Positions 3,633-11,569 of a stretch of DNA of 61,420 nt are shown one piece after another. The notes under the pieces are model-generated. The model was not told the DNA's origin, searched no databases, and saw nothing but the letters and a program-made list of their open reading frames with translations. This DNA is from Flavobacteriales bacterium. Its GTDB lineage: Bacteria; Bacteroidota; Bacteroidia; Flavobacteriales; Flavobacteriaceae. The stretch lies in NCBI GenBank assembly GCA_027039975.1, contig JALWFE010000004.1, positions 1-61,420 of the forward strand, written 5' to 3'. The position numbers were made by a program, and so were the translations under genes. Positions within the stretch are counted from its first letter, which is position 1; each line of letters opens with the position of its first letter.

Positions 3633-5396
3633 TTATAAAAAAAATTCTTTTTTCAATATTACATCTTCATCGATATCTTGTTTGGCGGTTTTACCAATAA
3701 TGAGTGCTTTTTCTTTCCATTTTAAGCCTGTTCCGGGACTTTTTAAGGTGAGCATCTCTTCGGTTAAAACCGTTCCTTTTTTGATGGGAACTTTGCTGAC
3801 CAAACTTCTGGCAAGTTTGAGTTTTGCCGGCAAAACAACCGGGTCTAATGCTTTAACACCGTCACCAATGGTTTTTCGGGCGTCTTTGATGTATTGTATC
3901 AATTTGGTAAATTCTTCTTTTTCGGCACTACCGGCGTGGTCGCTACCTTTCATAGCTTTGTTGAGTGTTATATGTTTTTCGACAACAGCAGCACCTAAAA
4001 TAGAAGCGGTCAAAGCTGCGATAATTCCCGTGGTGTGATCGGAATACCCGGTTATCTTACCGAATGTTTCACGCAAGGTTTTCATAGCTTTGAGGTTAAC
4101 CCGTTCCAAATCGGCGGGATATTGTGAGATACATTGAAGAATAATGATATCTTTACGGTCTTTGCCTAAAACATCCAAAGCATCTTCGATATCTTTCAAG
4201 GTAGCCATTCCGGTAGAAATAATGACCGGTTTGCCGGTTTTTGCCAATCTTTCCAATAGCGGTAAATTAGTTAAATCACGAGAGGCAACTTTATAAAAAG
4301 GTACATCAAGGCGTTCCATCATTTCTACCGAAGGGATATCGGTAGGGGTTACAAAATACGTGATTCCGCGGGCATTGGCATATTCTTTTAGTTCCCGGTG
4401 TTGTTGTTCATTCAATTCCAAAGCCATACGGTGTTCACCGTAAGTTTTTCCAAAGGAATGGGGATTGTCGTAAGGTTTGTTAAAAGCTTCTTTGGTCAAT
4501 TCGGAAGGGATATCCCTTTTTTGAAATTTGACGGCGTTGGCACCGGCTTCCACAGCCATGTCTATCAATTGCTTGGCTATTTCGACACTGCCGTTGTGAT
4601 TTTGACCTATTTCGGCTACTACATAAACCGGCATATCGTCCCCTACCGGAACACCATCCAATTCGACTTTTAATGCTTTATCATTTTCAATTGTAGATAT
4701 CTCGTTTTTCAGATATTCGTAAATTTCTTTAATGGAGACATTTTTGCGGTCAAAATTCAGTGCCTGCAACATTTTTTCCACACCTCTGAGTTGTTCCCAA
4801 GTATCAACAGTTAAATATTTATTATAAACGGGTTGAATACCGGACCAGTTTTTAGGCAGTTTGGTAATGTTGTAATTTTCGGCATTTTTTCTGAAAAACG
4901 GTGTAACGTGTTCCCGGTCAAAATCATCTTTGGTCAGTTTGTTGGCTTCTTTAATCAAACCGACTTTTATAAATTCCGGAGCCAAAGGAGAAAGCCCGTC
5001 TATGTAAGTGTAGTCTGCTTTGGTAACCAGATGGGTTTGATAGACTTTCAGGGTCAGCTCTTTGTTATAAATGGGATTGTCAGCCGTAAACCGGGCAACT
5101 AGATCATCTTCTTTTAAATTTAAATATCGGGTGGCTTTATCAAAACGATTTAAAACATCCTGCGAATCACCTCTGAATACCTTTACTTGTTTATCGTAAT
5201 CTTTTACAGCAGATTCGATAGGATCATCGGCTGTAAATTTGGTTGTGGCAATTACGATTTCATCAAAAAGTTCCATCTTTTTTATGGCATTGATAACGCG
5301 GTACAACAACGGTATGCCGTTTATCGAAATTAAAGACTTACCGCGAAGTCTGTTACTGAGCATTCTGGCTTGAACAATGGCAGCTTTTTTCATCAT
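3633..5396 (-). CDS. Fused cytidylyltransferase (SpsF-like) and NeuB-family nonulosonate synthase
   Basis: A 587-residue protein made of two enzymes. Residues 1-245 are a SpsF/NeuA-type cytidylyltransferase (N-terminal AAIVQARMLSNRLRGKSL, the nucleotide-binding start). Residues about 250-520 are a NeuB-type TIM barrel, which condenses phosphoenolpyruvate with an N-acyl hexosamine (or its phosphate) to make a nine-carbon nonulosonic acid. Visible motifs are VVAEIGQNHNG, NAVKFQKRD, GYSDHTTG and VVEKHITLNK. Residues about 525-587 are the SAF (antifreeze-like) domain, PIKKGTVLTEEML. Its ATG overlaps the upstream phosphatase stop by four bases (ATGA), so the two are translationally coupled. The pair implies synthesis and CMP-activation of a sialic, legionaminic or KDN-like sugar for surface glycans; which sugar is not decidable from sequence. 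The two activities are usually separate proteins. Confidence 0.88.
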   Translation of the reverse strand: MMKKAAIVQARMLSNRLRGKSLISINGIPLLYRVINAIKKMELFDEIVIATTKFTADDPIESAVKDYDKQVKVFRGDSQDVLNRFDKATRYLNLKEDDLVARFTADNPIYNKELTLKVYQTHLVTKADYTYIDGLSPLAPEFIKVGLIKEANKLTKDDFDREHVTPFFRKNAENYNITKLPKNWSGIQPVYNKYLTVDTWEQLRGVEKMLQALNFDRKNVSIKEIYEYLKNEISTIENDKALKVELDGVPVGDDMPVYVVAEIGQNHNGSVEIAKQLIDMAVEAGANAVKFQKRDIPSELTKEAFNKPYDNPHSFGKTYGEHRMALELNEQQHRELKEYANARGITYFVTPTDIPSVEMMERLDVPFYKVASRDLTNLPLLERLAKTGKPVIISTGMATLKDIEDALDVLGKDRKDIIILQCISQYPADLERVNLKAMKTLRETFGKITGYSDHTTGIIAALTASILGAAVVEKHITLNKAMKGSDHAGSAEKEEFTKLIQYIKDARKTIGDGVKALDPVVLPAKLKLARSLVSKVPIKKGTVLTEEMLTLKSPGTGLKWKEKALIIGKTAKQDIDEDVILKKEFFL

Positions 5397-5902
5397 TGGA
5401 TATTTTCTAGATACCGGTTGATTACCTCATCCAAGCGGTTGATTTTCATTAAATATTTTTGAACAAATTCTCTAAAAGCGCCTTCGCCTCCTTTTTTGTC
5501 CAAGACCCAGTCCACTTCTTTTTTGATATAATCTTCCGCAGATGAAGGACAAGCACTCAATCCGGCTTTACGTAACAATAATATATCATTTATATCATCA
5601 CCTATATAGGCAATTTCGTCCCATTTAAGGCGATATTTTTCTTTTAATTTTGAAGCGATTGCTAATTTGTCGGCAACACCTAAAAAAATTTCGTCAATAT
5701 TGAGTTTTTCAGCCCGTTTGGCTACAACAGAAGTATCTTCACCGGAAATAATTGCTGTTTTAATGTTCAAGATTTTTAAAAACAAGATTCCGGCACTGTC
5801 ACTTGTATTGAATTTTTTACATTCGTGTCCACTTTCGGTGTAATACATCCCACCGTCAGTCCAAACGCCGTCAATGTCAGTAATAAATAGTTTAATATCC
5901 AA
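5393..5902 (-). CDS. KdsC-like HAD phosphatase of nonulosonic acid synthesis
   Basis: A 169-residue C0-type HAD phosphatase. The catalytic loop is FITDIDGVWTDGG (nucleophile Asp9 and Asp11), motif II is AIISGED, and motif III/IV is YIGDDINDILLL. Length matches KdsC (8-phospho-KDO phosphatase) and the HAD partner found beside KDN-9-phosphate or Neu5Ac-9-phosphate synthases. Because it is translationally coupled to a NeuB fusion, the likely substrate is a nonulosonate 9-phosphate rather than KDO 8-phosphate (inference). If so, the upstream synthase would use a 6-phosphorylated hexosamine or hexose, unlike classic bacterial NeuB. The ATG sits two bases after the stop of the LamG gene. Confidence 0.8.
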   Translation of the reverse strand: MDIKLFITDIDGVWTDGGMYYTESGHECKKFNTSDSAGILFLKILNIKTAIISGEDTSVVAKRAEKLNIDEIFLGVADKLAIASKLKEKYRLKWDEIAYIGDDINDILLLRKAGLSACPSSAEDYIKKEVDWVLDKKGGEGAFREFVQKYLMKINRLDEVINRYLENIQ

Positions 5903-9488: not shown

Positions 9489-10961
9489 TCAAAAAACATA
9501 AATCATCAAAAATTCGCCCTTTTTTGTCATATTGACATTAATTTGCTTTGTATTGGCAGAAATCAATAATGTTTTTCCTTTTTTAAAATCAATTCCGTTA
9601 ATTTTAAAAGCCCCGTCGCCGGTATTCATCAAAATAATGAAACTGTCAATATTACTTATATCTATGGTTTTAGAGTTTGAAATTTTTATTTTTTTAATTT
9701 TAAAATAAGGCGTATCGACAAAATTTCCGGTTTTTTTCTCCGGTTGAGCTTCAAAATAGATTGATTCCAAGGCGGGTTCGGTATGTAATTCACGGGGTTT
9801 GCCGTTTAATCCGGGACGGTTCCAATCATAGATACGGTAAGTAATATCGGAGCTTTGCTGCACTTCCGCCAGCAAAATACCTTTTCCGATGGCATGAACC
9901 GTTCCGGCAGGGATATAATAAATTTCACCTTTTTTGACTTCAATTTTGTTGAGCAAGAGGTCCAATGTCCCGTTTTGTAGAGCTTTCAGATATGTTTCAC
10001 GGGTTGTGCCGGATTTAAAACCCAGATATAAAACAGCACCTTTGTCAGCTTGAATGATTTGCCACAATTCATTTTTACCGAAAAAGCGGTGTTTCTCGGC
10101 GGCAATTTTATCACCGGGATGAACTTGTATGGACAAATCATCATTGGCATCTATGTATTTGATTAACAATGGAAAATTATCACCGTATTTTTGGTAATTT
10201 GAAGCTCCAACCAAGGTTTGTTTGTATCGACTGACTAATTCCCGTAAATTTTTACCTTTAAAATACCCTGATTTTACAACTGAAATATTTTCCGGCAAAC
10301 AAGAGATTTCCCAACTTTCGCCGGTATGATCACTTGGGATTTTTTTGTGTAAAATACTTTTTAATTTCCGGCCACCCCAAGGTTTTTCTTTAAAAATGGG
10401 GGCAAATTCCAAAGGTTTTTTTTGCAACATTTTCATAGCCAATTCTTCTTTTAATTTGTCCAGAGAATTGGCAAAGATAATTTTGAACCATTCCGTATAT
10501 TTTCCGGGATGTTTTTTAATATCCGCTTCGATGTTTTCCAAACTTTCGTAAGTATAATCCATAACTTCGTCACGGTTGATACGGGGCGGTTCATTGCTAA
10601 ATCCAATCATAACGTGGTCCAGCTCGTGTTCTGTCAATCCGTTATCAAAAGGTGCTTTATAAATGAAATGAAAGATTTCTTTAAGTTTGGCAGCCATTCC
10701 CATTTCTTCTTTCAAACGGCGTTTTCCGGCTTCTATATTTGTTTCGTTTTTTCTTTGATGACTGCAAACGGTGTTTGTCCACAAGCCGGGCGAATGGTAT
10801 TTATGAGCGGCACGCTGTTGTAGTAAGAGTTCGCCTTTATCATTAAATATAAAGACCGAAAAAGCGCGGTGTAATAAGGCTTTTTCGTGCGCCAGCATTT
10901 TAGGAGCATATCCTAAAACTTCATCTTTTTCATTGACCAATATAACTTGTTCTTCTTGCAT
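9489..10961 (-). CDS. Fused isopentenyl-diphosphate isomerase (IDI-1) and class I mannose-6-phosphate isomerase
   Basis: A 490-residue two-enzyme protein. Residues 1-172 are a Nudix-fold type I IPP isomerase, with LWTNTVCSHQR (catalytic Cys66) and EHELDHV (metal/acid Glu region, about 112-115). Residues about 180-490 are a type I phosphomannose isomerase, with FKEKPWGGRKL, the zinc-site motif QVHPGDK, the ELWQII segment and PAGTVHAIG. The first would interconvert IPP and DMAPP, the second mannose-6-P and fructose-6-P. The join (about 175-186, AMKMLQKKPLEF) looks like an idi end run into a normal manA start and contains an eight-A homopolymer. I use the ATG at 10961 because the more upstream TTG at 10979 lies inside the promoter box. 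Confidence 0.88.
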   Translation of the reverse strand: MQEEQVILVNEKDEVLGYAPKMLAHEKALLHRAFSVFIFNDKGELLLQQRAAHKYHSPGLWTNTVCSHQRKNETNIEAGKRRLKEEMGMAAKLKEIFHFIYKAPFDNGLTEHELDHVMIGFSNEPPRINRDEVMDYTYESLENIEADIKKHPGKYTEWFKIIFANSLDKLKEELAMKMLQKKPLEFAPIFKEKPWGGRKLKSILHKKIPSDHTGESWEISCLPENISVVKSGYFKGKNLRELVSRYKQTLVGASNYQKYGDNFPLLIKYIDANDDLSIQVHPGDKIAAEKHRFFGKNELWQIIQADKGAVLYLGFKSGTTRETYLKALQNGTLDLLLNKIEVKKGEIYYIPAGTVHAIGKGILLAEVQQSSDITYRIYDWNRPGLNGKPRELHTEPALESIYFEAQPEKKTGNFVDTPYFKIKKIKISNSKTIDISNIDSFIILMNTGDGAFKINGIDFKKGKTLLISANTKQINVNMTKKGEFLMIYVF

Positions 10962-10976
10962 AAAAAAAATAATGCA

Positions 10977-10984
10977 CAAAGATA
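10977..10984 (-). promoter_or_regulatory. -7 box TATCTTTG of the idi-manA fusion
   Basis: Exact TAnnTTTG on the minus strand, 15 bases before the ATG at 10961. It rules out an in-frame TTG start at 10979. Confidence 0.6.
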
Positions 10985-11016: not shown

Positions 11017-11024
11017 TACTTTTG
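11017..11024 (+). promoter_or_regulatory. -7 box TACTTTTG of the DUF4395 gene
   Basis: Exact TAnnTTTG with a TTG at 10996-10998, 18 bases upstream. It divides the divergent pair and places the start of the downstream gene at 11090 rather than at the earlier ATG 11012. Confidence 0.65.
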
Positions 11025-11089
11025 CAACAAAAGTTACGTTAATAATTGTAAGGTTTTACAACAAACTGCGACTATATAAAAAAAAAGAA

Positions 11090-11569
11090 ATGAACAAGCA
11101 TTTTTCATATAATCAATTAGGCCGGGGCAACAAGGTAAAAGCTTGTCCCGTCTCTTATGAACAAGTCAACAAAAATTTAATCAAAGCATACAGTAGTATC
11201 GTTTTGATAGTTTTGGGATATACATTGATTACCGGACATTATTGGGCAATGTATCTCATCAGTTTGGATTTTTTTATACGGGTTTTTGCCGGTATCAAAT
11301 ACAGCCCGCTTTGTAATTTTTTGACAGCAATAATGAAAATCACGCCGTTAAAACCCGTTTTAGTCAATGCCGCCGGCAAAAAGATTGCCGCACAAGTAGG
11401 ATTGATTTTTGCCGTTGGTGTTTGTGTTTTTCATTTAACGGGTTTGACCGTTTTGTCAAATATATTCATTTTAATGTTTATAATAGCCATAAGTTTGGAT
11501 TTGGTTTTCAATTATTGTTTGGCTTGTAAACTTCAAAGTTTGTATTTGACTTATTTTAAGAAGCGTTAG
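11090..11569 (+). CDS. DUF4395-family integral membrane protein
   Basis: A 159-residue protein. It starts MNKHFSYNQLGRGNKVKACP and then has about four hydrophobic segments (for example SIVLIVLGYTLITG, AAQVGLIFAVGVCVFHLTGL, FILMFIIAISLDLVF). Features seen in DUF4395 proteins are the early Cys-Pro, an RVFAG/SPL segment and a late CLAC pair. Function is unknown. The start at 11090 was chosen because the upstream ATG at 11012 precedes the promoter box. It converges on tRNA-Arg, whose encoded 3' end is seven bases beyond the stop. Confidence 0.75.
   Translation: MNKHFSYNQLGRGNKVKACPVSYEQVNKNLIKAYSSIVLIVLGYTLITGHYWAMYLISLDFFIRVFAGIKYSPLCNFLTAIMKITPLKPVLVNAAGKKIAAQVGLIFAVGVCVFHLTGLTVLSNIFILMFIIAISLDLVFNYCLACKLQSLYLTYFKKR

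Follow-up and report, generated by a model that had tools for sequence, protein, structure and literature searches.

A conserved gene fusion of type 1 isopentenyl-diphosphate isomerase and class I mannose-6-phosphate isomerase, likely bifunctional, in Flavobacteriaceae

The joining of isopentenyl-diphosphate isomerase (IDI) to another enzyme has a precedent in the diatom Phaeodactylum tricornutum, which has an IDI-squalene synthase fusion (PMC12168105). The gene analyzed in the current study resembles that protein in carrying IDI fused to a second enzyme and differs from it in the choice of partner: the diatom protein draws both enzymes from one pathway (PMC12168105), whereas here IDI is paired with a sugar-phosphate isomerase from a different one. 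Each half also has a free counterpart of solved structure. Escherichia coli Idi (1hx3/1nfs) shares its fold, family models and putative metal-binding and catalytic residues with residues 1-163 of the fusion protein, whose IDI half differs in ending in a predicted helix that continues into a second enzyme, while Bacillus subtilis ManA (1qwr) shares its fold and putative zinc-site residues with residues 184-490, which in the fusion form a C-terminal domain; in several fusions, no start codon from which this domain could be translated separately lies near the junction. A further comparison is offered by the separate idi, queD and manA genes of Flavobacteriaceae such as Polaribacter, Cellulophaga and Myroides, which follow the same order on the same strand as the two halves of the fusion, but which are distinct genes with their own stops, mostly with the queD-like gene in between, whereas the fusion is a single frame. 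No description of an IDI-ManA fusion was found among the matches listed in our search of the open-access literature, a scope outside which most subscription papers fall, so that the gene joins members of two known enzyme families in a combination for which we have found no description.

The window, by which we mean the whole stretch of 61,420 nucleotides that was analyzed, carries the idi-manA fusion gene at positions 9489-10961 on the minus strand as a single open frame of 490 codons from an ATG at 10961, followed by a stop at 9489; an upstream TTG start would give a protein of 496 amino acids. A previous sequence-only reading had assigned this frame to IDI and ManA because it contains the motifs NTVCSHQR, EHELDHV, QVHPGDK and PAGTVHAIG, all of which are present in the translation, and the assignment proved right, since each half scored over the cut-offs of curated NCBIfam models. 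The type 1 IDI domain (residues 1-163; 10473-10961, minus strand) reached 161 bits against a cut-off of 127 with NF002995 (isopentenyl-diphosphate isomerase, residues 1-163) and 121.6 bits against 105.8 with TIGR02150, and the class I mannose-6-phosphate isomerase domain (residues 184-490; 9492-10412, minus strand) reached 141.5 bits against 116.2 with TIGR00218 (manA), the best stretch being residues 188-290. Among the Pfam models, NUDIX (54.6 bits, cut-off 21.1) and PMI_typeI_cat (48.7 bits, cut-off 22) were also over their cut-offs, while MPI_cupin_dom, the C-terminal cupin model, remained under its own (24.4 versus 27 bits). We treated this shortfall as a miss by a weak model and not as the loss of a domain, considering that the predicted fold of this half matches 1qwr_A with a TMt of 0.86.

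The fusion is genuine and conserved, and it is not the product of a stop loss or an indel. The joined frame was free of stops over the junction in 22 distinct sequences, namely the window itself, the congeners L005 and L009, and 19 fused loci detected among public genome contigs, which came from 21 genomes or metagenome-assembled genomes (MAGs), 12 from the genus of the window and nine others, one of which has two copies. Within the genus, 12 of the 13 genomes, including that of the window, are open through the junction. Nine of the 12 congeners carry a full-length fusion, two (G003 and G010) pass the junction before reaching a contig end, and in the twelfth (G005) the contig stops at residue 56, so that this genome gives no information on the junction. 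Chance joining is excluded because the whole joined frame is conserved in relatives. The earlier reading had warned that a run of eight adenines at the junction (eight thymines on the plus strand, 10416-10423) could conceal a stop loss or an indel. The run lies exactly where it had been placed, but the concern did not hold, given that in 11 of the 12 congeners the frame continues unchanged from one half into the other and that the other 21 fused sequences have no junction A run longer than six, with no stop in any of the 22. Likewise, close relatives with two separate genes, which had been considered evidence against a fusion, were seen only outside the fused rows.

Conservation of the putative active sites suggests that both halves are functional. 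Across the 17 full-length fusions, eight IDI residues were invariant, which we take to comprise the catalytic cysteine and glutamate (C66 and E113), the metal-binding histidines and glutamate (H25, H31, H68 and E111) and the conserved tyrosine and tryptophan (Y101 and W158). The same was true of the ManA residues Q279, H281, E298, H356 and R376, presumably the zinc ligands and the active-site arginine, and the invariant residues of both halves align with those of the solved structures (E. coli IDI chains and 1qwr). HMG-CoA reductase marks the mevalonate pathway, in which dimethylallyl diphosphate (DMAPP) requires IDI, and it was found in all 13 genomes of the genus; therefore, IDI should be needed in these bacteria. 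Besides, the fusion used as a query gave one match per genus genome, the exception being G003 with two contig-end fragments, and thus revealed no further copy of idi or class I manA; PF20511 had one match in the genome of the window. On this evidence from sequence, the gene likely encodes one bifunctional polypeptide with IDI and phosphomannose isomerase activities.

The connector between the domains (residues 164-183; 10413-10472, minus strand) lies mostly within a predicted helix. The distance from the WFKI motif of IDI to the F-x-P motif of ManA was 27 residues in 21 of the 22 fusions. The window is the exception with 28, one codon more than all the others, because its A8 run corresponds to the A5 run of a relative plus one codon; in 39 free IDI proteins, 15 to 24 residues separate WFKI from the protein end. 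The residues of the connector are among the most variable while its length is fixed, which indicates that length is kept more than sequence. An AlphaFold model built from 88 aligned rows (17 fused proteins and 71 free IDI or ManA proteins) had a mean pLDDT of 96.3 and a pTM of 0.92, with one helix (residues 157-181) spanning the junction, and a poorer model from 10 sequences (pLDDT 67.9, pTM 0.65) showed the same junction helix. In Foldseek searches, the IDI half matched E. coli IDI (1hx3_B, TMt 0.87) and the ManA half matched B. subtilis ManA (1qwr_A); these were separate matches, and none of the 50 matches listed was named as having both enzymes. The predicted structure points to a rigid arrangement of both domains, and the protein would offer a naturally occurring scaffold for two activities linked by a helix.

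We consider it probable that the gene specifies a bifunctional IDI-ManA that has retained both active sites and that likely had a single origin through the loss of queD from an ancestral cluster and the loss of the idi stop. The N-terminal type 1 IDI would convert isopentenyl diphosphate (IPP) to DMAPP in the mevalonate pathway, the C-terminal class I ManA would interconvert mannose-6-phosphate and fructose-6-phosphate, and the short helix would join one to the other. To our knowledge the two reactions have no common intermediate, and channelling is therefore unlikely. The benefit would most likely be a fixed one-to-one expression of two housekeeping enzymes, and the helix may possibly also stabilize the protein. 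The conservation of a fusion that bridges two pathways hints that the supply of both enzymes is better kept in a fixed ratio.

A neutral history, in which gene loss joined two neighbors and drift fixed the result with no functional gain, would be compatible with bifunctionality and is plausible, even if we lean away from it. In its favor, idi and manA are close on one contig in at least 30 of 47 genomes of the same family, all of other genera, and the absence of a shared intermediate and the variability of the connector sequence agree with it as well. However, the fusion is present in the genus of the window and in two further genera of the family, down to approximately 51% identity, with the connector length fixed, and the two halves have stayed joined in all 12 genomes of the genus in which the junction can be seen, both of which speak against a neutral history.

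The sequence-only reading had suggested a possible coupling of isoprenoid-carrier supply with mannose- or fucose-type sugar supply for surface glycans, which we regard as unlikely. The mevalonate marker in every genus genome and a cytidylyltransferase-NeuB gene located approximately 4 kb from the fusion are in line with this proposal, but gmd (GDP-mannose 4,6-dehydratase) was over the cut-off in five of the 13 genus genomes and the ManC domain in three, the genome of the window being in neither group. Weaker ManC matches occurred in eight more genus genomes, that of the window included, and gmd matches under the cut-off mean little because 14 of 14 control genomes match at that level. Moreover, the product of IDI is also used for quinones and carotenoids, and ManA can have a catabolic role. 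It is similarly doubtful that the helix of fixed length turns the protein into a single rigid unit and thereby lets one active site, or the way one domain assembles, affect the other. If this were true, mannose-6-phosphate or fructose-6-phosphate would tune DMAPP supply, or IPP and DMAPP would tune ManA, which would tie central sugar metabolism directly to isoprenoid supply, and a mutual influence of the two sites would represent an unrecognized control point between sugar phosphates and isoprenoids.

Expression of the gene may start from a promoter-like TATCTTTG (TAnnTTTG, which we assume to be the -7 type promoter motif of Bacteroidota) at 10977-10984 on the minus strand, which starts 23 nt upstream of the ATG. 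Of the 22 fusions, 14 were examined for this motif, and 12 of these have it beginning 20-25 nt before the ATG, the two exceptions being L070, where it occurs only at 12 nt, and L072, where none was found. In the window, an internal TATCTTTG at position 482 of the open reading frame precedes ATG codons 176 and 178, and one gene could accordingly give two products, the fusion and a free ManA made from an internal promoter, start codon or both. We consider this improbable, since these internal signals are not conserved. An ATG near the junction is present in the window and in 10 of the 16 other full-length fusions, leaving six of 17 without any, and in L058, L059 and L060 the first 60 codons past WFKI contain neither ATG nor GTG nor TTG; the TAnnTTTG motif near the junction was present in five and absent in 10 of the 15 fusions examined. 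As some fusions lack a start codon near the junction, the fusion itself is likely the source of ManA in at least some species. A palindrome, CTTTTGTTGCAAAAG, at 11019-11033, between the fusion and a divergent DUF4395 gene (11090-11569, plus strand), was evaluated as an operator of the fusion and rejected. It was found, exact or as a variant, in seven of 14 upstream stretches, all of them adjacent to DUF4395, and was missing in L057 and L063 although both have DUF4395. Across the genome, it matched once exactly and four times with a single mismatch, compared with one match for a reversed control pattern.

The fusion was rare in the wider samples. Among the matches listed, best ones first, for 397 genomes of the family (237 genera), a full-length fusion occurred in six genomes of three genera, namely G000, G001 and G012 of the genus g1, G997 of g499, and G1127 and G974 of g476, and G1142, which belongs to g499 like the fused G997, gave no match to either half. 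Among the matches listed for the order sample (395 genomes) and the class sample (395 genomes), only the genome of the window had a full-length match. One MAG (G827) contains two copies (L065 and L067) on two contigs, with IDI halves 61% and 60% identical to that of the window, which represent either two strains binned together or a duplication. The fused records are titled Flavobacteriales or Flavobacteriaceae MAGs at NCBI, except for L066 and L071, which are labelled Chlorobiota. These two and L105, a third record with that label, carry Flavobacteriaceae-like idi or manA genes, and for L071 (genome G832) the label looks wrong because G974, of the family of the window, matches at the same coordinates.

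The arrangement of the separate genes in relatives suggests how the fusion could have formed. The contig scan retained 80 loci, 19 fused and 61 separate, and in 60 of the 61 separate loci idi, a queD-like gene and manA follow in that order on one strand, a frequency that is biased because likeness to the entire fusion determined the ranking of the loci; in the sole exception (L130), manA is outside the stretch covered. These 60 loci of the set L075-L135 share the order although the three genes serve different pathways. The distance between queD and manA was at most 225 nt in 43 of the 60 loci and 397-3547 nt in the other 17. The count of same-family genomes given above is less biased, and a queD-like gene stood between idi and manA in 18 of 20 such loci inspected, Pfam having confirmed PTPS for three middle proteins (from two of the 18 loci and from L084) and the remaining assignments among the 18 resting on likeness. 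The other two loci had either a peroxiredoxin gene alone in between (G034, with AhpC-TSA confirmed by Pfam) or nothing but a gap of 67 nt (G053), and G051 had a queD-like gene plus a peroxiredoxin-like gene. In some relatives, open frames of approximately 637 to 696 amino acids had been reported over idi and manA, and three-domain idi-queD-manA fusions were thus considered; in the five of these relatives that were examined (G046, G013, G017, G040 and G050), the DNA instead shows separate open reading frames with stops. In the genus that carries the fusion, a PTPS (queD) gene is present in 11 of 13 genomes, away from the fusion, and queD is absent from the 189,853 bases around the 19 fused loci.

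These observations indicate that the fusion probably arose once from an idi-queD-manA cluster. As the simplest route, we propose that in a lineage of the family with this ancestral cluster queD would have departed, after which the loss of the idi stop would have created one frame, and the fusion would then have been inherited vertically with both active sites kept. The fused rows fell on one side of a branch both in the IDI tree (22 of 82 rows, SH-aLRT 87) and in the ManA tree (20 of 80 rows, SH-aLRT 100, with two short fused rows left out and six fused rows of unusual letter make-up). Both were quick, unrooted trees with some long-branched rows, and the drawing midpoint falls among the fused rows, so that they allow a single origin rather than prove it. 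The locus offers a testable case of the passage from a gene cluster to one protein in which the likely precursor order can still be seen in relatives.

We deduce the direction of change, from separate to fused, from how seldom the fusion occurs in the wider samples. It is very unlikely that the fusion is the older state and that the separate genes derive from a split, an idea to which the midpoint root drawn among the fused rows of both trees would lend itself, because IDI and ManA normally occur free beyond the few fused genomes found, that is, among the matches listed, six of 397 in the family and the genome of the window alone in the order and class samples. Hardly credible at all is the idea of what would be a two-gene locus that looks fused through an error of sequencing or assembly, or through a stop loss or frameshift that recently arose at the A8 run. 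Even though the genome of the window is a draft in 140 contigs and the window alone has the extra codon at that run, the junction is open in each of the 22 distinct fusions, which represent 21 genomes or MAGs, 21 of the fusions have no A run longer than six there, and substitutions across the junction follow a coding pattern with the third position most variable. In the window and its eight nearest full-length fusions, a comparison that includes L057 from another genus, codon variability was highest at position 3 and lowest at position 2 in every block tested, and the differences over residues 164-187 in these nine sequences were 0.41, 0.23 and 0.57 at codon positions 1, 2 and 3, respectively.

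The window contains a second fusion, which involves sugar genes of the nonulosonic-acid type. A gene of 587 amino acids at 3633-5396 on the minus strand joins cytidylyltransferase (CTP_transf_3), NeuB and SAF domains, and it is adjoined by a HAD-like hydrolase gene at 5393-5902.
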